Positions 5,848 through 48,976 of a stretch of 64,000 nt of DNA are shown in pieces. Source of the stretch: an uncultured Pelagibacteraceae bacterium. GTDB lineage: Bacteria; Pseudomonadota; Alphaproteobacteria; Pelagibacterales; Pelagibacteraceae. The notes under the pieces are model-generated. The model did not search any database. It was not told the DNA's origin and saw only the letters and a list, made by a program, of their open reading frames with translations. The translations under genes and the position numbers were made by a program. The stretch covers positions 1 through 64,000 of the forward strand of contig CABYFN010000002.1 in the NCBI GenBank assembly GCA_902518235.1, in the 5' to 3' direction. The number at the start of each line of letters is the position of its first letter. Position 1 is the first letter of the stretch.

Positions 5848-7155
5848 ATGTTGAATATAAAAAGAATTTTTGAGACCATTGCTGATGCTGGACAAAAGAT
5901 TTTAGAAAAAAAATCCTTTAAAAGTATTGCAAAAAAAAGAGATCTATTAGATCTTTGTGATGACCTGTTGTCTACTAAAGGAGCAGCTTTTGGAATTACA
6001 TTGGCAAGAGATATATTATTTAGATATCAAAATTTATCTAATGAAGAAAAAAATAAATTTTTAATTGACGTTAATGAAAAGTATAAACCAGATCCATTAA
6101 AAATTGATGAGGCTATTAAGAAATACAGCGTTGCCCAAGATGATTACTCAATTTTAAATTTATCAAAAGTTACCTCTGGCATAAGAAAAGAACTATTTGT
6201 TAGATTAAATATGGCTCCCAATGGTACATCTGAGATTGTTTCATTAAGAGAAGATTTAGTAAAATTAATGAAGGATAAGCCAGAATTAAAAAGTTTGGAT
6301 TATGATCTAATCGATATATTTAAAAATTGGTTCAACCCTGGCTTCCTGAAGCTAAGAAAAATAACATGGGACACAAAAGCAAATATTTTAGAAAAATTAT
6401 TAAAATATGAAAAAGTTCATTCAATGAAAGATATGAATGAATTAAAAAGAAGACTTGGAAAAGATAGAAGATTCTTTGCATATTTTCATCCTGCTTTAGA
6501 AGACGAGCCTATAATATTTGTTGAGATAGCTTTAACCAAAGGATTAAGTCAATCTATACAAGAATTAACAAGACCTTCAAATGAAAACCTAAAAAAATAT
6601 GATACAGCAACTTTCTATTCAATAAGTAACTGCCAAGATGGTTTATCAAGAGTAACTCTAGGAAATTTTTTAATTAAAAGAGTTGTCTACGAACTTCAAG
6701 AAGAACTTCCAGATATAAAATATTTTGGAACTTTGTCACCAATGGTTGGATTTGCCAATTGGTTTAAAAAAATGGATAGCAATCAAGCAGCAGAGATTTT
6801 AGGTGAAGCTAATAAAAACAGTTTAGATTTTTTAAAATCATCTGATTTAAAAATAGGAGATAAACGAATAGCTGATAGTAAGCAGATGATAAGCAAACTT
6901 GCAGCAAATTATTTAGTAAAACAGAAAAATAATTTTGGATTTCCAATTAATGATGTTTGTAGATTTCATCTTAAAAACGGAGCTGATATCGATGATATTG
7001 CCATAAATGCAAACGTTTCAGAGGTAGGTTTTAAAAGGTCTTTTGGCGTAATGGTTAATTATAGATATGAATTAGCAAAAATTGAGAAAAATCACCAAGA
7101 ATATGTAAACGAGAAGAAAGTTAATATATCCAATAAAGTTAAAAAATATGTCTAA
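5848..7155 (+). CDS. malonyl-CoA decarboxylase
   Basis: Converts malonyl-CoA to acetyl-CoA and CO2. The family signature FAYFHPALEDEPIIFVEIALT is present near residues 209-229. The expected catalytic serine region (SISNCQDGL, about residue 257, then GNFLIKRVVYEL) and the catalytic histidine (CRFHLKNGA, about residue 374) are conserved, and the conserved MVNYRYEL closes the C-terminus. 435 residues is normal for a bacterial member. It lies in one run with the TRAP genes and overlaps dusA by 8 bases. With a TRAP uptake system and a CoA-transferase close by, a malonate assimilation route is likely (malonate in, CoA transfer, decarboxylation). The transferred acid has not been shown. Confidence 0.92.
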   Translation: MLNIKRIFETIADAGQKILEKKSFKSIAKKRDLLDLCDDLLSTKGAAFGITLARDILFRYQNLSNEEKNKFLIDVNEKYKPDPLKIDEAIKKYSVAQDDYSILNLSKVTSGIRKELFVRLNMAPNGTSEIVSLREDLVKLMKDKPELKSLDYDLIDIFKNWFNPGFLKLRKITWDTKANILEKLLKYEKVHSMKDMNELKRRLGKDRRFFAYFHPALEDEPIIFVEIALTKGLSQSIQELTRPSNENLKKYDTATFYSISNCQDGLSRVTLGNFLIKRVVYELQEELPDIKYFGTLSPMVGFANWFKKMDSNQAAEILGEANKNSLDFLKSSDLKIGDKRIADSKQMISKLAANYLVKQKNNFGFPINDVCRFHLKNGADIDDIAINANVSEVGFKRSFGVMVNYRYELAKIEKNHQEYVNEKKVNISNKVKKYV

Positions 7156-8149
7156 GATTAATAGATTGGTGTCAGTTGCCCCTATGATGGATTGCACTGA
7201 TAGGCACGAAAGATACTTTTTAAGATTGATAAGTAAAAATGTGCTTCTTTACACTGAAATGGTTGTTTCAGAGGCAATCGATAGAGGAGATAAGGATAGA
7301 CTGTTATCCTTCGACCTAAGAGAAAAACCAGTAGCCTTACAATTAGGTGGTTCTACACCAAGATTGTTAGCAAATTCTGCAAAAATTGGTGAGGATTATG
7401 GATATGACGAAATTAATTTAAACTTAGGTTGTCCAAGTAAAAAAGTTCAAAAGAACAAATTTGGTGCATGTTTAATCAAAGAGCCAAATTTAGTTGCTGA
7501 TTGTTTGTCAGAAATGATTAATTCAACGTCTTTACCAGTCACTGTTAAGACTAGAATTGGTTATGACGACGTAGAGGATTACGAACATCTTTATAATTTT
7601 ATAAATACTTTAAAAGACACAGGAGTTAAAACTTTTATAATTCATGCAAGAAAAGCAATGCTTGGTAAATTTACACCTAAACAAAATCTCAATATACCTC
7701 CACTAAAATATGATTATGTATATAAACTAAAGCAAGATTTCAAAGATCTAGAAATAGTCATTAATGGCGGTGTCACCTCTGTAGAGGAAGTAAAAGATCA
7801 TTTAGAAAGAGTAGATGGAGCAATGATTGGCAGATCTGTTTATCATTCGCCTTACCTTTTAGCTGATATTGAAAAAGAGATATTCAATAATCAAAATATA
7901 AAAGATCGAGAAGAAATCGTTGAAGATTTAATTGACTACGTTAAAGCTGAAGTGAAAAAAGGTACAAGAGTAAATCAAGTTATGAGACATACACTTGGTT
8001 TATTTCATGGACAAACTGGCTCTAGTCACTGGAAAAGATACTTAAGTGAAAATATGTGTGTAAGAGATGCTGACGTAAAAAAAATTGATCATATTATGGA
8101 TAAAGTTAGACTTTCTCCTAAATTACATTCTTCAGGTCGAATTGATTAA
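7148..8149 (+). CDS. dusA: tRNA-dihydrouridine synthase A
   Basis: FMN enzyme reducing uridine to dihydrouridine at positions 20/20a of the tRNA D-loop. The N-terminus VSVAPMMDCTDRHERYFLR is characteristic of DusA rather than DusB or DusC. NLNLGCPSKKVQKNKFGACLI holds the catalytic Cys (FGACL), VTVKTRIGYDD is the FMN/substrate strand, and NGGVTSVEEVKDHLERVDGAMIGRSVYHSPYLL is the phosphate-binding end of the barrel. 333 residues matches the family. It overlaps the preceding decarboxylase by 8 bases. Confidence 0.94.
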   Translation: MSKINRLVSVAPMMDCTDRHERYFLRLISKNVLLYTEMVVSEAIDRGDKDRLLSFDLREKPVALQLGGSTPRLLANSAKIGEDYGYDEINLNLGCPSKKVQKNKFGACLIKEPNLVADCLSEMINSTSLPVTVKTRIGYDDVEDYEHLYNFINTLKDTGVKTFIIHARKAMLGKFTPKQNLNIPPLKYDYVYKLKQDFKDLEIVINGGVTSVEEVKDHLERVDGAMIGRSVYHSPYLLADIEKEIFNNQNIKDREEIVEDLIDYVKAEVKKGTRVNQVMRHTLGLFHGQTGSSHWKRYLSENMCVRDADVKKIDHIMDKVRLSPKLHSSGRID

Positions 8150-39584: not shown

Positions 39585-40157
39585 TTATCCTTGAAGAACT
39601 TCATCAGGTTTTCCTGTGCACATTTGATATGCCTCAGTAATCTTTTCTGGAAGTTTATCTATTTTCCAATTGTTATAAAAAAGATCAAAATATTCTTCTG
39701 GATCAAAATCATCAGACTTTGCTAACATTATACTGAACACTTTATCTTTTTTATAATCCCTCATAATTCCTTCAGTAAATTTGTTTAATGGATAATATTT
39801 TGGAGCAGCAAACATTACAAAAAATGCCATATTACTAAAGGCTGGTTTAACAAGTAATACATCTGCAACATTTAATGTCTCTGATCCATTTATTTTTATT
39901 GGAACCTTTCTTCCTTGTAATTCAGGTACTTTTGAATTTTTATAAGTAAGAAAAGAAAACATTACGCCAATTTTATTGCAGTCTTTTTTTTCAAGAACAA
40001 ATCTCATTTTATCTCCATGTGATATTTCTCCAGGTACACTAGTTACTATATAGCTGCCAAAATCATGTACATTCCATTCATCCTCACTAGCGTAAGTATG
40101 CGTTGTTAAAATAGTTGTAATTAACAACAAATATTTGAGAATTTTAAAAAATACCAA
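39585..40157 (-). CDS. exported hypothetical protein, paralogue of the next upstream gene
   Basis: 190 residues with a signal peptide (about 1-23, ending TYA). The mature part shares its whole layout with the product of 40209-40781: EWxxxxFxxYI near the start, GDKMRFVLEKKDCNKI versus GDKLVFSMSYKDCNTI, GRKVPIKING versus NKRIPISLNN, and a C-terminal segment with a conserved Cys. Start is TTG at 40157, which lies inside a 21-codon ORF, so translation may be coupled to it. No known domain; probably periplasmic. Confidence 0.75.
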   Translation of the reverse strand: MVFFKILKYLLLITTILTTHTYASEDEWNVHDFGSYIVTSVPGEISHGDKMRFVLEKKDCNKIGVMFSFLTYKNSKVPELQGRKVPIKINGSETLNVADVLLVKPAFSNMAFFVMFAAPKYYPLNKFTEGIMRDYKKDKVFSIMLAKSDDFDPEEYFDLFYNNWKIDKLPEKITEAYQMCTGKPDEVLQG

Positions 40158-40209
40158 AGAACAAACCTGCTATTTTAATTATTACTAAAGCTTCCATTCC
40201 AGCAAACAT
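40144..40209 (-). CDS. possible 21-residue hydrophobic peptide
   Basis: Short ORF, MFAGMEALVIIKIAGLFFGIF, one hydrophobic segment. Its ATG overlaps the stop of the upstream exported-protein gene (TAATG) and is preceded by a strong AAGGAGAG ribosome binding site; its end overlaps the TTG start of the downstream paralogue. The placement suggests translation, either as a small membrane peptide or as a coupling leader. No homologue can be named. Confidence 0.4.
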   Translation of the reverse strand: MFAGMEALVIIKIAGLFFGIF

Positions 40210-40781
40210 TAACTCTCCTTATGAGTTGTCTTTTCCAAACAACGTTTGTAAGTCTCATCAAATTTTTCTGAAAAATTATCTAAAATCCATTTATTTTTAG
40301 TGATATCGAAATATTTTTTTACTTCAAAGTTCAATCCATTTGAAAGTGATATTTCATATGCTTCATTTTCCTCTAAGAAACCCTTTAATAATTTTACATA
40401 TTTTTTAGTTTCATATGTACCAAGTTCAAAAACTATCCAATAAGCTTTATCATCTAATATTGGTTGAATATAAATTAGTTCAGCTGATAACTCATTATTA
40501 TTGAGGGATATCGGTATTCTTTTATTTTTTAAATGACTAATATCATTAATGTTTTTTGTAGTTAAAACAGTGAATAATTGATGAATAGTATTACAGTCCT
40601 TGTAGCTCATAGAGAAAACTAATTTATCCCCATAAAGAAATTCACCATTTTTACTCAAATAGATATATTCCTTGCTCTTTTGATCAATCGTCCACCCATC
40701 ATCTGCACGGGCATGTGGGTGAACAATTAAAAGGATTACTAAGGCAACTAAATGAAGAAAAAAGAATAACGATAATCTCAT
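40209..40781 (-). CDS. exported hypothetical protein, paralogue of the downstream gene
   Basis: 190 residues with a signal peptide (about residues 1-26, ending ARA). It is similar along its length to the product of 39585-40157, including a lone Cys in KDCNTI and a Cys close to the C-terminus that could form a disulfide. The two genes look like a tandem duplication on the minus strand. No recognised domain; a periplasmic location is likely. Confidence 0.75.
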   Translation of the reverse strand: MRLSLFFFLHLVALVILLIVHPHARADDGWTIDQKSKEYIYLSKNGEFLYGDKLVFSMSYKDCNTIHQLFTVLTTKNINDISHLKNKRIPISLNNNELSAELIYIQPILDDKAYWIVFELGTYETKKYVKLLKGFLEENEAYEISLSNGLNFEVKKYFDITKNKWILDNFSEKFDETYKRCLEKTTHKES

Positions 40782-40855: not shown

Positions 40856-43800
40856 ATGAACGATAAAATTGATCCAAAAACTAAACTTGCTAAAGAAAAT
40901 ATTAAAAAATTAAGGCAAAAAATATTAGAGGGATCTACAACAAATAGAAATAAATTAATTAACTTTAAACATAATGATAAACTAAGAACTCAAGTACGAA
41001 TTGTTGATGAAATTCCAAATGAAATTTTTAAAGGATTGATAGATGGAAAGACATATTCATTTAAATCATTACCAGAGGAAGAAAAAGAACCAAAAGATGA
41101 AAAAACACCTGAATTTAAAACTGAATATGAAATAGCTCAAAAAGAAGATGAAGTTTATTTAAAATTAATTGAAAAAATGGGCGATGATTATGATGCCAGC
41201 AGCAAAGAGTCATTACAAATTGAAAGAGATCTTAAGGATAGGGTAAGAAAAAAATTAGACCTTGGAAACAGAAATACAATAGAGGTGTTAGGAATTGAGG
41301 AATATGCCAGAAAGCACGGCATTAATCCAAATTTTGAATTACCAAAAGAAGCAAAGGATTTATCGGAAAAACATAAGGATAAAGACTTACAAACCATACT
41401 AAAGCCAGATCAAATGGATAAAAAACTTTCTGGTATTAAAAGTAGAGTTAGATCAGCATTAAATGAAAAAGGCATCAATACATTATACTTAGCATTCGGA
41501 TTTATTGAGTGGGTTGAAAGCGAAAGTAGTGATATTAAAATTCTCTCTCCATTAATTCTTTTACCAGTAGATTTAGAGGAAAAAAGATCAAAAAAAGGGT
41601 CACAATTTTTAGTATCTGGTAGCGACAATGATCCTCAAATAAATATTGCATTAAAAGCAAAATTTGAAAGAGACTTTGGAATTATATTAAATGATCTAGA
41701 GGAAGACGAACTACCAGAAAAATATTTCTCAAAACTTGAAGAGCAAATTAAAGGTAAAGACCGATGGATTATTAAAAGAAATATAACAATTGGATATTTT
41801 CAATTTCCACGAATGGCCATGTACTATGATTTAGATCCAGAAAAATGGAACGATCTTGGTGAACAAGAAACTTTGAAAGATTTATTTTCAGGCACAGGTG
41901 AAGGAGATGGAACACCAGCTGAGGATTATGATGTGGATGATAAAAATATTAAATCAAAAGTACCATTACTCTTAAATCAAGCTGATGCATCTCAATATAG
42001 CACAATAGTGGATGTCATGAATGGCAAAAACCTTGCTATACAGGGCCCACCAGGAACAGGTAAATCTCAAACTATTGCAAATATTATAGGGTCAGCATTA
42101 CATGAAAAAAAAAGAATTTTATTCTTAGCTGACAAAAAAGCAGCACTTGATGTTGTTTATAAAAAACTTGTTGATGCAGGTCTTGGAGATTTTTGTTTAC
42201 AAATTGAAAGCGCAAATAAAAAAAAATCAGATGTAATCGATGATATAAAAAAAAGGCTTAATTTATCAAAAAAAAATGATCAAAGTGGAAATTCATCTGT
42301 AATTATTCAGAAAGAAGAAATAGTAAAACAAAAATTGATTCAATACGCCAATTTAATTAGTAAAAGCATTGGAAACTCTAAGAAAAATATTTATGAATTA
42401 AATGGACTAATTTCAAAGTATAAAGAATGTGAAAACGATGCATTTATAGAAATCTTTAATAATAAAATCGATAAAATTTCTAAAGAGCTTGTAGATCTAG
42501 ATCCTCCAAAATATGATCAAGTATGTGAAAATCTCAGTAAATTAGACACTCAAGCAAAAATAATTACATTGAAATTTAATGCAATATCTAAACACCCTTG
42601 GTTTGGTTTTATAAACAACCAAGTAAACCCTTATGACAAGTCTAAATTAGTTGGTGATTTTAAGGATATAAATAATATTATTAGTGAATTATTAAATATT
42701 GTTAATAATTTAAAAGAAAAATTACCTGATACTAAAGTACTACAAAACATAAACTTAATTAATGATTTAGATAAACTTAGGAATTTAGGTAAAATTGAAA
42801 ACCTAGATAAAACTTTACTATATTTAGAGTATATAAATACAGTAAATGACGTCGATGCGATTGAAAATCTTCTTAAACTAATCAATGAAAATAAAGAAGA
42901 TTTGAATTTTGAAATAAATTTACAAAAACGTTTAAAAATAAAAAGAACAGACTTTAAATTAATTAAAAAATATACTGAAATAATTAAGAACTCTAATTTT
43001 TTTTCATTTGCCTCTTCATCATTTAGAGAAGCTAAAAATTTTTATAAAAATATTTCAAAGAATAGTAGTTATAATAAAACAACAGCTATTAACGATTTAA
43101 AGGATTATGCCAAGCTTATATCAATGTACGAAAAAATTCAAAATATAAAAAAAATATTTAAAGATAATAATGAATACCAAAAAATATTAAAAGATGAGTA
43201 CAAAAAAGAAAATACATCGGTAAAACTTTTAGAAAATATAATTAATCATACAAAAAATGTTATTAAAAGTTTTGACAAGGAAACTGTCCAAAATATTTTA
43301 TCTGATAAAAATATTCTTCAAAGAATATGCGGTGCATCTTTAGAATTAGATAAAAATTTTGATAAATTTAATAAAAAGCTAGATAATTTAAAACCTAATA
43401 TAAATATAAAAGAATTTTATTCTGAAGATTTAAATATCAAATCAATAATCAATAAAAATCAAGAACTAGACGAGTATTTACTAAATGAATGGATTGAATT
43501 TTTGAATTTAAAGTCATCATTTACTAAACTTGAGAATAAATTAATAAAAATTTATGATGACAATGAACTTAAATATGAGAATCTAGAAAATGTCTTTAAA
43601 GCAATATATTTTAATTATTTGCTTAAATATGCATATTATGAGCACCCTGAATTAACAGAATTCAATGGAGAAACACTTTCAAAATTAAGGGTAGAATTCA
43701 AGGATCTAGATCAACAAATCTTTAAAATAAATAAAATAAATTTATATAATTCCCTACTGAATATAAGAGTAAAAAGAGGTGTAACTACTGGCGCTACAAA

Positions 43801-45184
43801 AAAATTAACTGAAAAAGGGTTGCTTGATGTTATAACAAAACAGTCACGACCCAGAATATCTTTAAGACAATTAATAAAAAAGTCATCAGAGGCTTTAGCT
43901 GATTTAAAACCGTGCTTTATAATGTCGCCAACAACTCTTGCAGAACTAGTTAGACAACAAGAGAATTTATTTGATATTTTAATAATTGATGAAGCCTCTC
44001 AGATGAGAATGGAAGATGCAATAGGAGCAATGGCGAGAGCTAAACAATCGGTTATAGTTGGTGATCCAAAACAACTTGCTCCAACAGGATTTTTTGATTT
44101 ATCAGATGAAAATGAGGATGAAGAAATTGATGAAGAGTCGATCCTTGATAAAGCTATATCTAGATTTCAGCCACACAGACTCTTAAGATGGCATTACAGA
44201 TCTAAAAATGAAAAATTAATAAATTTTTCTAATCACCATTTCTATGATGATCGTTTGATAATTCCTCCATCACCTAGCTTAAAGAAAGCAATATTTTCAA
44301 ATAAAGTTGAAGCTGTATATAAAGGTAAAGTTAATCACCATGAAATTGATGCTATGAAACCTGATTTAATTAATTTTATGAAACAAAATATAAGAAAAAA
44401 TGAAAATGATAAAACTTCAAAAAGTTGTTTGATAGTGACGATGAACACAGATCAAGCACAGTTGATAGAAGATGAGCTGAGATTTATGGAGATTAATGAA
44501 CCAGCAATCACCGAATATAAAAACTCATGGAATGGAACTTTAGAAGAATTTACAATCAAAAATTTAGAAAGAGTCCAAGGTGATGAAAGGGATGTTATTT
44601 TTATATCTACATTATTTGGACCAAGGGAAAAAAGTGGAAAGGTTCAAAATACGTTTGGACCGATAAATTTGGCTAACGGTCATAGAAGGTTAAATGTTTT
44701 ATTTTCTAGAGCAAAAAGAGAAGTTCATCTTTATACCTCAATGAATCCAAATGATATCCTTGTTGAAGGCGCGCCTCTGGGAAGACAAGTTTTAAAATCA
44801 TATTTGGAGTATGCTAAAACTGGAAAACTTGAAATAGGAGACATAAATCATAACAAAGAACCAATGAGTGAATTTGAGATATTTGTTATGAATGGTCTGA
44901 AAAATATGGGCTATCAGGTAGACCCACAAGTAGGAGTATCTGGTTTTTTTATAGATCTTGGAGTGAAACATGAAAAGTTTCCTGATGGTTATATTTTAGG
45001 AGTAGAATGTGATGGTAGAGCCTATCACTCATCAAGATCTGCAAGAGATAGAGATATATTAAGACAAAGTGTTTTAGAAGATATGGGATGGAAAATATAT
45101 AGAATATGGTCTACAGACTGGTTTAAAAATCCACAAGCTGAACTAAAAAAACTTGATAATCACATAAAAAGAATAATTAACTAA
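40856..45184 (+). CDS. large SF1 helicase with DUF4011-like N-terminus and Vsr/DUF559-like nuclease C-terminus
   Basis: 1442-residue protein. Residues 1-330 resemble the DUF4011-type N-terminal domain. Walker A GPPGTGKSQTIANII lies near residue 396, motif II IIDEASQM near 1044, WHYRSK near 1115, GDERDVIFIS near 1242 and LFSRAKREVHLYTS near 1283, as in Upf1/DNA2-like SF1 helicases. A ~500-residue Lys/Asn-rich, probably coiled insertion separates Walker A and B. The last ~100 residues (VGVSGFFIDLGV, GVECDGRAYHSSRSARDRD, then the GWKIYRIWSTDW end) form a Vsr/DUF559-like endonuclease. This architecture has been reported among antiphage proteins (Hhe, from memory). A nuclease-rich operon follows after a 478-base gap. 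Confidence 0.85.
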   Translation: MNDKIDPKTKLAKENIKKLRQKILEGSTTNRNKLINFKHNDKLRTQVRIVDEIPNEIFKGLIDGKTYSFKSLPEEEKEPKDEKTPEFKTEYEIAQKEDEVYLKLIEKMGDDYDASSKESLQIERDLKDRVRKKLDLGNRNTIEVLGIEEYARKHGINPNFELPKEAKDLSEKHKDKDLQTILKPDQMDKKLSGIKSRVRSALNEKGINTLYLAFGFIEWVESESSDIKILSPLILLPVDLEEKRSKKGSQFLVSGSDNDPQINIALKAKFERDFGIILNDLEEDELPEKYFSKLEEQIKGKDRWIIKRNITIGYFQFPRMAMYYDLDPEKWNDLGEQETLKDLFSGTGEGDGTPAEDYDVDDKNIKSKVPLLLNQADASQYSTIVDVMNGKNLAIQGPPGTGKSQTIANIIGSALHEKKRILFLADKKAALDVVYKKLVDAGLGDFCLQIESANKKKSDVIDDIKKRLNLSKKNDQSGNSSVIIQKEEIVKQKLIQYANLISKSIGNSKKNIYELNGLISKYKECENDAFIEIFNNKIDKISKELVDLDPPKYDQVCENLSKLDTQAKIITLKFNAISKHPWFGFINNQVNPYDKSKLVGDFKDINNIISELLNIVNNLKEKLPDTKVLQNINLINDLDKLRNLGKIENLDKTLLYLEYINTVNDVDAIENLLKLINENKEDLNFEINLQKRLKIKRTDFKLIKKYTEIIKNSNFFSFASSSFREAKNFYKNISKNSSYNKTTAINDLKDYAKLISMYEKIQNIKKIFKDNNEYQKILKDEYKKENTSVKLLENIINHTKNVIKSFDKETVQNILSDKNILQRICGASLELDKNFDKFNKKLDNLKPNINIKEFYSEDLNIKSIINKNQELDEYLLNEWIEFLNLKSSFTKLENKLIKIYDDNELKYENLENVFKAIYFNYLLKYAYYEHPELTEFNGETLSKLRVEFKDLDQQIFKINKINLYNSLLNIRVKRGVTTGATKKLTEKGLLDVITKQSRPRISLRQLIKKSSEALADLKPCFIMSPTTLAELVRQQENLFDILIIDEASQMRMEDAIGAMARAKQSVIVGDPKQLAPTGFFDLSDENEDEEIDEESILDKAISRFQPHRLLRWHYRSKNEKLINFSNHHFYDDRLIIPPSPSLKKAIFSNKVEAVYKGKVNHHEIDAMKPDLINFMKQNIRKNENDKTSKSCLIVTMNTDQAQLIEDELRFMEINEPAITEYKNSWNGTLEEFTIKNLERVQGDERDVIFISTLFGPREKSGKVQNTFGPINLANGHRRLNVLFSRAKREVHLYTSMNPNDILVEGAPLGRQVLKSYLEYAKTGKLEIGDINHNKEPMSEFEIFVMNGLKNMGYQVDPQVGVSGFFIDLGVKHEKFPDGYILGVECDGRAYHSSRSARDRDILRQSVLEDMGWKIYRIWSTDWFKNPQAELKKLDNHIKRIIN

Positions 45185-45662
45185 TACAAAAATATTTTTT
45201 AGTTGTAGAGCAGAACCCCCCAAAAAATAAAAAGTGATATAATGGAAAATGTTTAAAGGATTATATAGGACTATCTAGGACTATAACTTTAAAAGGCTAA
45301 TATTAATCTAAAAAAAAAACTTAATTAAAATTGTTAATCATGTATTGAAAAAAGATTTTATTATATTATATTAGTGTCAGGTAGAGATTGACGAAAAACG
45401 GAAGGCAAGTTATATAAATTTAATTTCTAACTTTGTGAGTTTATATTACCTGCCTTCTAATAAGATGACACTGCCAATGACTATGCCGAAAGCGACTTAT
45501 TTATGCCTAGGCTGGTTAGCTAAAACTTGGTGAACTCTCTTTCATAATTTTTACCTATAAATTAATTATGAGCAAAAGTTAGAATGGAGATTAAAAACAA
45601 TCATTACAATTTGATATTTAGATTTATCTTTAGAGAACTTTTGTTCAAGAAAGGTAAATATA
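45185..45662 (+). other. 478-base non-coding stretch between helicase and nuclease operon
   Basis: No ORF of convincing size on either strand. It holds three things. First, a motif at 45257-45288 with GGATTATATAGGA and repeated AGGACTAT words, resembling the ends of the tRNA-Leu modules near 58.7 and 60.3 kb. Second, a long stem-loop domain at 45373-45472. Third, a nested inverted-repeat domain from 45541 into the start of the next gene. It is probably the 5' leader and regulatory or recombination region of the downstream operon. Confidence 0.6.
45373..45472 (+). ncRNA. candidate structured RNA / stem-loop element
   Basis: Two nested helices. The outer stem is AGTGTCA (45373-45379) with TGACACT (45466-45472), seven perfect pairs. 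The inner stem pairs 45401-45419 with 45439-45457, 17 of 19 positions complementary (GAAGGCA against TGCCTTC, then an A/T-rich part) around a 19-base loop. Such long pairing in non-coding DNA is unlikely by chance. It matches no tRNA, tmRNA, RNase P or SRP pattern I know. It may be an RNA, a leader structure, or a folded single-stranded DNA site. Confidence 0.5.
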
Positions 45663-45671
45663 ATGAACAAG
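45541..45671 (+). promoter_or_regulatory. inverted-repeat leader overlapping the start of the RHH gene
   Basis: TTCATAATTTTTACCT (45541-45556) is complementary at 14 of 16 positions to AGGTAAATATAATGAA (45652-45667), which contains the AAAGG ribosome binding site and start codon of the next gene. Inside it, CAAAAGTT (45573-45580) pairs perfectly with AACTTTTG (45636-45643). In RNA this would hide the start site; in DNA it could be an operator for the ribbon-helix-helix product. Confidence 0.4.
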
Positions 45672-46052
45672 AGAAAGTACAAATCAATAGCTATTGACAT
45701 TAACTGCTATAGAAAAATAGACGACCTATCAACAACATTAACTCCAGGACTTAAACTATCAAAAGCACAAGTAGTAAGGACTTTAGTTAATCAAAAAAGC
45801 TCTGGAAGAAAAGATACAAGTTATACAATAGTGAGCTTATTTTCTGAGTACACTCCACAAGAAAGGCAAGAAATTCTACAGGATATTGATAAGAAAATAT
45901 TAATGCTACTGGATCTGTCTGAAGGTGAGCTTCCATGGTTAAATTCAAACGAAAACTTCGATGAAAAATGGTCATCCATAATGAATGACTTAAGACTTAT
46001 TGTAAGTAAATTTAAGTATGATCTGCTTCAAAATGAAAGGAGCATAAATTAA
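45663..46052 (+). CDS. probable ribbon-helix-helix DNA-binding protein
   Basis: 129 residues. The N-terminal ~45 residues fit a ribbon-helix-helix fold: a short strand (YKSIAIDINCYRKI), then a helix, a turn with LKLSKAQVVRTLVNQ forming the second helix. The C-terminal part is acidic and helical, of unknown role. It opens the run of coupled genes ahead of the nucleases and is the natural candidate for their regulator, perhaps acting on the inverted repeats around its own start. Its stop directly abuts the next ATG. Confidence 0.65.
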   Translation: MNKRKYKSIAIDINCYRKIDDLSTTLTPGLKLSKAQVVRTLVNQKSSGRKDTSYTIVSLFSEYTPQERQEILQDIDKKILMLLDLSEGELPWLNSNENFDEKWSSIMNDLRLIVSKFKYDLLQNERSIN

Positions 46053-46214
46053 ATGGACAAAATACATGAGATAAGAATTGAGGAAGTATTTGATGAAGAA
46101 AATAGCAATCACTACTATTGGATTTATTATTTTAAAAATGATGAAGTAAAAATAATAGGTAAATCATCAATTAAGCCAAAATGTTTTAGTCAAATAGCGA
46201 GGTATTTAAAATGA
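46053..46214 (+). CDS. 53-residue hypothetical protein
   Basis: Small acidic protein (MDKIHEIRIEEVF..., aromatic HYYWIYYF in the middle, ending SQIARYLK). The ATG follows the previous stop with no gap, AAAGGAG lies upstream, and the last four bases overlap the next start as ATGA, so expression within the operon is very likely. The alternating aromatic strand suggests a small beta sheet. Function unknown. Confidence 0.65.
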   Translation: MDKIHEIRIEEVFDEENSNHYYWIYYFKNDEVKIIGKSSIKPKCFSQIARYLK

Positions 46215-46507
46215 CAAATTATTTCAAGAATAAGATGAAAGATAGGCTAACTTATTGTAAAGAATGGCAAAATTCTGTAGAGATTTACTGGGCTAATAAG
46301 GAAATTACAAAAAAAGCTGAATATGAGTATTACAAATCTTGGCCAATTCTTAAATTAATTTTAGATTTTTATTTCATTCCATATAATATTTTAAGGCTAA
46401 TTAAATATTTAAGGATGTTACATGAATATAACAAAAATAAAATTGAGATAAAAGTTTTAACTAAGGAAATTCATGACGATAATAATACAGAAAGGCCCAA
46501 ACAATGA
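46211..46507 (+). CDS. 98-residue hypothetical protein with hydrophobic segment
   Basis: Basic N-terminus (KNKMKDRLTYCKEWQNSV), an aromatic hydrophobic segment around residues 50-62 (WPILKLILDFYFIPYNIL) that may lie in or on the membrane, and a charged C-terminal helix. Overlaps both neighbours by four bases (ATGA). No family recognised. Its place just before the Cas4-like nuclease suggests an accessory role. Confidence 0.6.
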   Translation: MTNYFKNKMKDRLTYCKEWQNSVEIYWANKEITKKAEYEYYKSWPILKLILDFYFIPYNILRLIKYLRMLHEYNKNKIEIKVLTKEIHDDNNTERPKQ

Positions 46508-47217
46508 ATTTAAGTAGATCGAAATGGGATAGTTTCATAAAGTGTCCCCATTGTTTTTATTTGAAAGAAAAATATAATATTAATCCCCCTAGCACTCCTG
46601 GCCACCCAATTAATTCTAGAGTAGATGCTTTATTAAAAGAAGACTTCGATAATTTAAGAGCAAAGCAAGAACCACATCCTATATTCAAGGAGTATAATTT
46701 AAATTTTGTTCCTTATAATCTTGATAAAGAAACTTTAAATAAATATAGATTTAATCGACATGGGGTGAGAGCAATTTCTAAAAAAACAGGAATAGAACTT
46801 TATGGTGCTCTTGATGATTTATGGTTGAATATTGATACAGACGAGATAGTAGTTCTTGATTATAAAGCAACATCAAATAAAAAGCTTGAAGACTATACAA
46901 AATCTAAAAGACATTATCATAAAGCTTATTTAAGACAGCTTGATTTTTACTCATACCTATTAAAGCTTAATAATTATAAAGTTCATGACACGGGATATTG
47001 GCTTATTTGTAATGCTGCAAATGGTGAACAAAATGAATTTAAAAATAACTTAAAATTTAAAACTACATTGTTGTCATACAAGTTAAAGACAGACTACATA
47101 GAAGACACATTGGTAAACCTAAATGATTGTTTAAAGTCAGATAAATCGCCAAAAACAGGCGATGATTGTGATAATTGTAGATGGTATAATGAAAAAAAAA
47201 TAAAGGAGAATGGATGA
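46504..47217 (+). CDS. Cas4/RecB-like PD-(D/E)XK nuclease with four-Cys metal site
   Basis: 237 residues. The nuclease core shows GALDDLW near residue 102 and VVLDYKATS (Asp 119, Lys 121), then YLRQLDFYSYLL as the usual Q-x-x-x-Y helix. Cysteines C14 and C17 (KCPHC) at the N-terminus and C222 and C225 (DDCDNC) at the C-terminus could bind an iron-sulfur cluster or zinc, as in Cas4, AddB and related exonucleases, though Cas4 uses a 1+3 rather than 2+2 pattern. No CRISPR array or cas1/cas2 is in the window. Overlaps both neighbours by four bases. Confidence 0.78.
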   Translation: MNLSRSKWDSFIKCPHCFYLKEKYNINPPSTPGHPINSRVDALLKEDFDNLRAKQEPHPIFKEYNLNFVPYNLDKETLNKYRFNRHGVRAISKKTGIELYGALDDLWLNIDTDEIVVLDYKATSNKKLEDYTKSKRHYHKAYLRQLDFYSYLLKLNNYKVHDTGYWLICNAANGEQNEFKNNLKFKTTLLSYKLKTDYIEDTLVNLNDCLKSDKSPKTGDDCDNCRWYNEKKIKENG

Positions 47218-48341
47218 GCCAAAATATAATATGCCCAGAATGTAAGGCTGAATTTCCAATGGAAGAAGGTGCAAAATCCCATTTTCAATCTCTTGAAAAT
47301 GAACTTAGAGATAAAGTCAAAAAAGAAGAAACTGAAAAATTAAAAGATGATTTAAAAAAACTTAAAGTGTTAGAAAATAAAGATAAAGAAAATCAAGAAA
47401 AATTAAGTTCCTTAAAAAATGAAAATAAAGAGCAAGAAGATAAAATAAAGTTGATTAATGAACAAAAAGATCAAAAAATAAAAGACGCTGTTAAGAAGCA
47501 ATTGGAGTCTAAAGAAAAAGATTTAGATAAACAATATAAAGAACATTACGAAGCTTTTTATGAAACAAAATTTAAGGATCAAAAAGAAAACCTAGAAGAA
47601 CAAAACAGCGAAAAACAAAAACTTTGGGAATTAAAAGAGCAAAGATTTGTTGCTACAATTGATGATCTTAAAAAAAAAGCAACTCAAGGAACAACTGTAG
47701 ATCAAGGTTCTTCTGCAGAAATGCAATTAGGTGATTTTTTAAAAAAAATATTTAAGGATAAAGACGATAAAATTTCAGAATATGCAAAAGGTGTTGCTGG
47801 TGGTGATTGGCTTCAAGAAATAATAGAAAATAATCAAACAATTTGTAAAATTTTATATGAAAATAAAAATACTAAAAATTGGAGTAATGAGTGGATAAAA
47901 AAATTGCAATCAGACATGAAAGACTCCAAATCAGATGTTGGAATTATATTTACACGGGCTACACCAAAAGATTTTCCAAAAGATGTTTCATGGGATCACA
48001 AAGGAAATATATTTATTTGTAAATATGATTTTACATCATTAAGAGCTCTAGCGACTACTCAAAGATGGTACTTGTCAGATAAAAATAAACAAAAAGATAG
48101 CAGTAAAGAAAATGTTTTATCAGCTATTGAATTTATTGAAAATCCAATAATTAAAAACTTATTGATGCAAAAAATTAATATTTCTGACAAACAGAGAAAA
48201 AAATTAGAATTAACAAAAAAAAATCTTGATGATGCTATAGATTTAAATGAAACCATGGATGACAGTCTAGAGGAATTTTTTGAAGAAATTGAAAAAATTG
48301 GTGTTGAGGATTTTTTACTTAAATGGAAAAAAAATAAATAA
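47214..48341 (+). CDS. DUF2130-like coiled-coil nuclease-fold protein
   Basis: 375 residues. An N-terminal zinc-knuckle-like CPECKAEFPM (C7, C10) leads into a long Lys/Glu coiled coil (about residues 25-160), then a restriction-endonuclease-like domain: SAEMQLGDFL, GGDWLQEI, and ICKILYENKNTKNWSNEWIKKLQSDM with the E-x-K pair at 216/218, followed by DVGIIFTRATP. This layout matches DUF2130 proteins, related in organisation to RmuC. DNA binding or cutting is plausible. It overlaps the Cas4-like gene by four bases, so the two nucleases are probably made together. Confidence 0.72.
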   Translation: MSQNIICPECKAEFPMEEGAKSHFQSLENELRDKVKKEETEKLKDDLKKLKVLENKDKENQEKLSSLKNENKEQEDKIKLINEQKDQKIKDAVKKQLESKEKDLDKQYKEHYEAFYETKFKDQKENLEEQNSEKQKLWELKEQRFVATIDDLKKKATQGTTVDQGSSAEMQLGDFLKKIFKDKDDKISEYAKGVAGGDWLQEIIENNQTICKILYENKNTKNWSNEWIKKLQSDMKDSKSDVGIIFTRATPKDFPKDVSWDHKGNIFICKYDFTSLRALATTQRWYLSDKNKQKDSSKENVLSAIEFIENPIIKNLLMQKINISDKQRKKLELTKKNLDDAIDLNETMDDSLEEFFEEIEKIGVEDFLLKWKKNK

Positions 48342-48345
48342 TTTA

Positions 48346-48531
48346 ATGGATAAGAAAGACAGAAATAAGTGGACTAATAAATTTAGAGATTTAGGAAAAA
48401 AGAAAGGCTCCAGGCAAGACTTCATTAAACTTTATAAAGAAATGAAAAAAACAAAAGAAGAAAAAAATCAAGATTATTTAGAGACTGAAAATCAAAGTTG
48501 GAAAGATTTAGTCGATGATAATGAAAAGTAG
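48346..48531 (+). CDS. 61-residue basic hypothetical protein
   Basis: Highly charged small protein (MDKKDRNKWTNKFRDLGKKK...), with a basic first half and an acidic end (WKDLVDDNEK). Starts 4 bases after the DUF2130-like gene and overlaps the next gene by 17 bases. The start at 48346 is chosen over upstream in-frame codons that lie inside the previous gene. Possibly nucleic-acid or protein binding; no family known. Confidence 0.6.
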   Translation: MDKKDRNKWTNKFRDLGKKKGSRQDFIKLYKEMKKTKEEKNQDYLETENQSWKDLVDDNEK

Positions 48532-48976
48532 TGAAAATTATAATCGTAATCCTAATGGATATAATCAGTGGGGAACTAGGTCTGATGAGGAATTACAAAA
48601 ATTAATAAATAGATATCCAAAAAACTGGACAAAAAAAGACTTTAGAGGTGAAGGGAAAAATAATCAAAAGAAGATACTAACACGCAATGAAACTGAACGG
48701 CCTGGGTTATTTTTTGGAAAAAGGGGCAAAAGCAGGCAATCATTAAAAGATGTTTATAAATACTCAACGCAGGAAAGTATTTTAGAATTTGAAAAAAAAC
48801 TAATAGATGAGGAAACTTTAAGAAATAGGGCTAGAACAAAAAAACAAAGAGACTTAATGCCTAATTATAAAAAAAGAGCATTGTATAAAAGAAGGCATGC
48901 TAATCTTACAGAGTCTGAATTAGAATTAAAGAGACAAAGAGATAAAATTTACAAAGAAAGTTTAAAAGTTAATTAG
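48515..48976 (+). CDS. 153-residue basic hypothetical protein
   Basis: Very basic, Arg/Lys/Asn-rich protein. The N-terminus (MKSSENYNRNPNGYNQWG, starting at the ATG at 48515 or 48521) is probably flexible. RSDEELQKLINRYPKNWTKKDFRGEG may be a small helical unit and the C-terminal half (LMPNYKKRALYKRRHANLTESELELKRQRD) a basic helix, suggesting nucleic-acid binding. It overlaps the previous gene by 17 bases. No known domain. Confidence 0.55.
   Translation: MIMKSSENYNRNPNGYNQWGTRSDEELQKLINRYPKNWTKKDFRGEGKNNQKKILTRNETERPGLFFGKRGKSRQSLKDVYKYSTQESILEFEKKLIDEETLRNRARTKKQRDLMPNYKKRALYKRRHANLTESELELKRQRDKIYKESLKVN

Follow-up and report, generated by a model that had tools for sequence, protein, structure and literature searches.

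An undescribed family of structured leaders preceding a modular nuclease operon in SAR11 genomic islands

Locus and gene content

The window (W), the whole stretch of 64,000 nt analysed here, lies on contig C2 of a SAR11 (Pelagibacter-type) genome, which is itself incomplete. The largest real gap between its genes (45185-45662) measures 478 bases against a median gap of 24, so that the unusual length ascribed to it in the earlier note holds; a gap of 617 bases heads the gap list only through ORF picking and was hence discounted. The gap is flanked by the following genes:

40856-45184: left neighbour, DUF4011 helicase of 1442 aa with a C-terminal MTES_1575 nuclease
45663-46052, + strand: gene A (A129), with an N-terminal RHH-like part (strand-helix-helix, weak) and a helical C-terminal domain
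46053-48976, + strand: operon genes B53, C98, a PD-(D/E)XK nuclease (Cas4-like), DUF2130, and the small genes E and F

The left neighbour has a strong match to PADLOC candidate PDC-S37 and is a second candidate defence gene adjoining the nuclease operon. A tandem pair of related signal-peptide-like proteins is encoded on the minus strand at 39585-40781, and homologs of these also adjoin the islands in loci L057 and L060.

When the structure of gene A was compared with PDB, no significant match was obtained and only a weak TCP/RHH-like hit to the N-terminal part, so its RHH label is a putative one. The RHH-like and helical parts are fused in W and L153 and are separate genes in L112 (at 5911-6635 in its oriented sequence), and they also occur alone. 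In the prophage-like loci L063 and L064 the RHH-like part lies near an integrase-like gene. The operon is modular, with B53 and C98 widely shared and the nuclease slot taken by PDDEXK_1, DUF2779, RmuC, or DUF2130 proteins. Among the operon genes a Cas4-like PD-(D/E)XK protein is present, and no RNA-guided nuclease (IscB, TnpB, or Cas effector), reverse transcriptase, replication initiator, or toxin was recognised.

Related loci

A DNA-level search with the leader in 200 relatives and phages gave nothing above AT-rich noise, and homologs were then reached via proteins A and B53, which gave matches in 16 and 30 further genomes, respectively. The operon is present in about 30 of 399 Pelagibacter genomes. 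The GTDB labels of the relatives bearing it are Pelagibacterales, Pelagibacteraceae, or Pelagibacter, the exceptions being two MAGs, one labelled Proteobacteria and the other Bdellovibrionales. No viral homolog of A, the nuclease, or B53 was found in IMG/VR. In most loci the non-coding stretch upstream of A is roughly 200-560 bases long.

Statistics were computed on 14 representative divergent leaders, with L053-L055, L102, L050, and L099 left out; as the leaders are related, permutation figures from these representatives somewhat overstate independence. Later leaders were obtained with a model built on just the 3' part (L124-L126) or via B53 in GTDB (L143, L144, L153). L053, L054, L055, and L102 carry a leader of a second type, in which ATTTTTCC/GGAAAAAT cover the SD and which follows the same principle with a different sequence; matches of this type to the leader model are weak at most, as in L053 and L055.

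Another leader type was seen upstream of B53 in L058, L098, L101, and L147, with a hairpin whose arms resemble ACCATGATGCTAG/CTAGCATCATGGT; immediately 5' of B53 it has a small hydrophobic ORF (MIIDTMMLAFIFQVGLLSLASW...), and in the first three of these loci an A homolog is on the opposite strand. In L097, L103, and L106 a tRNA-Leu-like sequence, recognised by eye, lies immediately 5' of B53, preceded in L097 by the hairpin AGCGATCACAC/GTGTGGTCGC.

Promoter and SL1 hairpin

The plus strand of the gap folds with better energy than 98 of 100 shuffles (z -2.4), and the folding of the minus strand is ordinary (z -1.2). All paired arms listed in the earlier note are where it had placed them. The features of the 5' part are as follows:

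45345-45372, + strand: sigma-70-type promoter, TTGAAA-16-TATATT
45373-45379/45466-45472: outer 7-bp stem AGTGTCA/TGACACT, drawn from the sequence only
45378-45662, + strand: leader RNA of about 285 nt, its start placed from the promoter
45400-45458, + strand: SL1 hairpin, with an A.C mismatch (45408/45450), 2 bp, and a U.U mismatch (45411/45447)
45425-45434, + strand: SL1 loop segment TTCTAACTTT, complementary to 45575-45584 (p about 0.02 in W alone)

The distance from the end of the -10 box to SL1 is 23-29 nt in 11 of the 14 representative leaders, compared with 15% in shuffles. In W no terminator was found between the start of the leader and the ATG of gene A.

Arms 45401-45419/45439-45457 of SL1, previously counted as pairing at 17 of 19 positions, were recovered with Watson-Crick pairs at 17 of 20 ungapped positions. 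In relatives SL1 covaries strongly, with both-side changes at 13 of 18 pairs. Its sequence is hypervariable; in most members the A.C mismatch, the two pairs, and the U.U mismatch are held at equal height while the letters vary. Over the 14 aligned leaders 86% of cells are paired and both sides change at 21 of 33 pairs, a result matched by 0 of 500 shuffles, with slid registers giving 30-42% paired; the structure used in this test was drawn from one of the tested sequences. Relatives show pairing beyond chance for SL1 and for two long-range stems at the ATG described below, and not for the outer 7-bp stem: the corresponding segments in the 14 leaders pair no better within than across loci (permutation 0.15 and 0.60), and this stem was rejected as a structural element. 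In W its 5' arm comes immediately after the -10 box and no further downstream than where transcription is expected to start.

Counting G.U against A.C mismatches in SL1 failed as a strand test, as A.C (28) outnumbers G.U (13) and the RNA strand is therefore not provable from SL1 alone; it was assigned from the promoter and from where the structure lies relative to the start codon. A tmRNA piece at 45475-45520, suggested by an alpha-tmRNA-like tag seen by eye, was rejected because the tmRNA of this genome, of alpha type, is located elsewhere and neither Rfam nor ARAGORN gave a hit here.

Hairpin over the start of gene A

The 3' part of the leader has these features:

45550-45658, + strand: SD-hiding hairpin
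45550-45556, + strand: outer stem 5' arm TTTACCT, partner 45652-45658
45570-45580, + strand: inner stem 5' arm GAGCAAAAGTT, partner 45636-45646
45575-45584, + strand: partner of the SL1 loop, AAAGTTAGAA, abutting the ATG of the leader ORF and overlapping the inner stem arm
45584-45697, + strand: leader ORF MEIKNNHYNLIFRFIFRELLFKKGKYNEQEKVQINSY, ATG at 45584-45586, out of frame with gene A, whose start it overlaps
45636-45646, + strand: inner stem 3' arm AACTTTTGTTC, partner 45570-45580
45652-45658, + strand: outer stem 3' arm AGGTAAA, part of the gene A SD region

A second nested structure had been proposed from 45541-45556 with 45652-45667 and 45573-45580 with 45636-45643. It is present, both stems at the ATG covary, and the latter stem extends to 45570-45580/45636-45646. 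In relatives 88.8% of the cells of the outer stem are paired, and 2 of 500 shuffles reached its covariation score. For the inner stem the figure is 3 of 200,000 permutations. A purely local alternative SD hairpin had marginal covariation support.

Stems of this kind resemble the device of an expression platform, and together with the constant mismatch geometry of SL1, kept while paired letters change, they would suit a leader responsive to a ligand or protein, in which SL1, bearing its fixed mismatches, would bind a metabolite or a protein of the operon, as a riboswitch or in autoregulation. Pairing that controls the SD is indeed a trait shared with metabolite riboswitches. However, the conserved sequence core of metabolite aptamers is missing (mean column identity 59-63%), no known class is recognised, and no Rfam 15 family reached its threshold with the leader. 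The same leader type also precedes A proteins both with and without the RHH-like part, and such control is judged unlikely.

Pairing of the SL1 loop with the leader tail

The most telling feature of the leader was missed in the earlier note. The apical loop of SL1 has a complement of 8-13 bp elsewhere in the leader, in most cases the region where a small ORF begins within the loop of the SD hairpin. This site falls in the final 135 nt of each locus's own leader. Loop and partner are ATTTTACTGACCA/TGGTCAGTAAAAT in L059, GCTTTCTCA/TGAGAAAGC in L107, TACTTTCTTT/AAAGAAAGTA in L108, and TTCTAACTTT/AAAGTTAGAA in W. In an alignment-free swap test of the 14 divergent leaders, loops paired with their own leaders over 10.2 bp on average and over 6.8 bp with those of other loci (0 of 200,000 permutations). 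Leaders examined after the hypothesis had been formed (L124, L143, L144, L153) have the loop pairing at an unchanged position, as do L125 and L126. Between L100 and L153, which are similar elsewhere, the pairing differs by two exact double compensations, from GACTTGCA/TGCAAGTC to GACCTACA/TGTAGGTC. In L051 it is the gene A SD that the SL1 loop pairs with. W is an outlier, with its partner at -88 where about -55 is usual and with a pairing that is individually weak; as this partner overlaps the arm of the inner SD stem, the two pairings are mutually exclusive in W.

In most leaders the ORF whose start region is the pairing partner traverses the SD hairpin and either stops where gene A begins or runs on into it. 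Its frame has no stops in 10 core leaders, compared with 10 and 22 in the other frames, and its peptide is little conserved, hardly above the other frames. The ORF is truncated in L100, consists of a bare start-stop (ATG TAG) in L153, begins with TTG in L109, and is missing from L051, so that coupling to gene A would not be universal. The leader ORF is probably a step of the mechanism.

The earlier note had also considered that the RNA might serve the system as a guide or template, a reading invited by a structured non-coding RNA beside nuclease genes and by the hypervariability of SL1. Neither a reverse transcriptase nor an RNA-guided nuclease was recognised among the operon genes, the complement of the variable loop lies in the leader that carries it, and no terminator divides leader from mRNA. 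This reading was abandoned as extremely improbable.

Repeats upstream of the promoter

Two elements were located upstream of the promoter:

45206-45224, + strand: TAGAGCAGAACCCCCCAAA, a diverged copy (15/19) of the D-loop/anticodon segment of tRNA-Phe
45264-45286, + strand: TATAGGA..TCTAGGA repeat, a candidate operator for the RHH-like product of gene A

The region 45206-45290 contains GAGCAGAACCC and TATAGGA-type repeats. Sister loci have copies, some of them in tandem, with TAGAGCAGAGCCCTGAAAA, an exact 19-mer of tRNA-Phe, which at one mismatch or less occurs in 133 of 201 genomes and nearly always as a single copy. In the incomplete genome of W no tRNA was found within 3 mismatches of the 45206-45224 copy. 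Upstream repeats were found in 11 of 16 loci with an RHH-type A and in 0 of 17 without (Fisher 2e-5, indicative only, the loci being related).

In L056, at about 7480-7720, 65 bp tandem repeats include a 19-base piece of tRNA-Phe reaching from D-loop to anticodon loop, and repeats containing tRNA-Phe sequence also stand 5' of RHH-type A genes in L113 and L125. The repeats of L056, L113, L125, and W look like accumulated att sites or tRNA-derived operators. The 45206-45224 copy is possibly an att remnant or an operator, the resemblance being weak for W itself.

These repeats bear on whether the inverted repeats of the gap act as DNA, as an att or cruciform recombination site or an operator, and not as RNA. 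They copy a tRNA-Phe segment, as in elements integrating at tRNA anticodons, and A looks RHH-like. Against a DNA-level function, covariation is found in parts that follow a positioned promoter and stop at the SD, the SL1 loop has its pairing partner in a start region far from it, and the tRNA-like repeats are upstream of, and separate from, the structured part. Action as DNA is thus regarded as very improbable. The terms operator and recombination site used in the earlier note may apply only to 45206-45290, on account of the tRNA-Phe repeats in sister loci.

Discussion

The segment 45378-45662 is probably a structured 5' leader RNA that acts in cis as a translational gate of a mobile nuclease operon. 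The leader family is undescribed and is found in genomic islands of SAR11, ahead of a nuclease operon of modular make-up. Comparison of relatives shows the promoter position, SL1, the loop-to-tail pairing, and both SD stems. The suggestion of a regulatory RNA is upheld by a promoter at fixed distance, covarying stems that hide the SD, a covarying loop-to-tail pairing, and the lack of a terminator before the ATG. Homologous loci were checked for a lack of both covariation and stem conservation, which had been named as grounds for withdrawing the structure, and this did not occur.

Transcription would begin from the promoter at 45345-45372, with SL1 the first element to form. The 3' part would then fold into a hairpin in which TTTACCT of the outer stem pairs with AGGTAAA of the ribosome-binding region of gene A and the inner stem closes over it. 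In most relatives the loop of this hairpin contains the start of the short ORF, with which the apical loop of SL1 would pair. In this closed state both the leader ORF and gene A would be hard for ribosomes to reach. If the SL1 contact were lost or delayed, ribosomes would enter the leader ORF, translate across the SD hairpin, and unmask the gene A start. We infer that the leader is off by default and that its ORF is coupled to gene A. W may instead switch between two exclusive pairings, as the partner of its SL1 loop overlaps the inner SD stem. The SL1 loop could be a sensor of foreign RNA, with RNA transcribed from an infecting phage or a rival element freeing the leader ORF and turning the operon on; this is improbable, and would account for the rapid joint change of loop and partner between islands.

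Several known systems are comparable. In hok/mok/sok type I toxin mRNA and IncFII tap/repA, coupling operates via a small overlapping ORF and long-range leader pairing. Both elements are found here, with the coupling predicted; the layout of the pairing differs and no toxin was recognised. The repZ/repA leaders of IncI-alpha, IncB, and IncL/M replicons have an SLI loop, a leader ORF, and a pseudoknot near the rep SD. The leaders described here are similar in having a 5' hairpin loop complementary to a site near the start region of the controlled gene, an SD within a stem, and, in most cases, a short leader ORF overlapping the controlled gene. They differ in belonging to a chromosomal island operon with RHH-like and nuclease genes, and in having their loop partner usually at the start of the leader ORF; the sequences also differ. 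Control by antisense RNA as in IncI/IncB replicons, with a counter-transcript of SL1 competing for the loop, would agree with a long hairpin with mismatches, with loop pairing near a start codon, and with an A.C mismatch that would turn into G.U in the antisense RNA. The minus strand to the right of SL1 has no promoter-like site in W, the only locus scanned, and the operon has no replication initiator. Antisense control is accordingly given little credence, and for lack of a replication gene and of an antisense promoter in W the leader was not filed with the IncI/IncB/IncL-M group. For the rep leaders of IncI-alpha, IncB, and IncL/M see PMC10724649.

Cis-acting structured leaders, namely rpsB, rpsL, ffh, and SAM-V, with pseudoknots in at least two, are described for Ca. 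Pelagibacter ubique in the excerpted text of PMC2704228. Those leaders sit before core genes, whereas the leader described here occurs only in islands and is absent from the motifs of that excerpt (PMC2704228).

The pairing of two sites, for which natural compensatory mutants exist, is directly testable. SAR11 bacteria are among the most abundant cell groups on Earth and have few known regulators. A leader family that is absent from Rfam and that probably keeps nuclease islands locked would illustrate how a cell as streamlined as this could leave risky genes silent.
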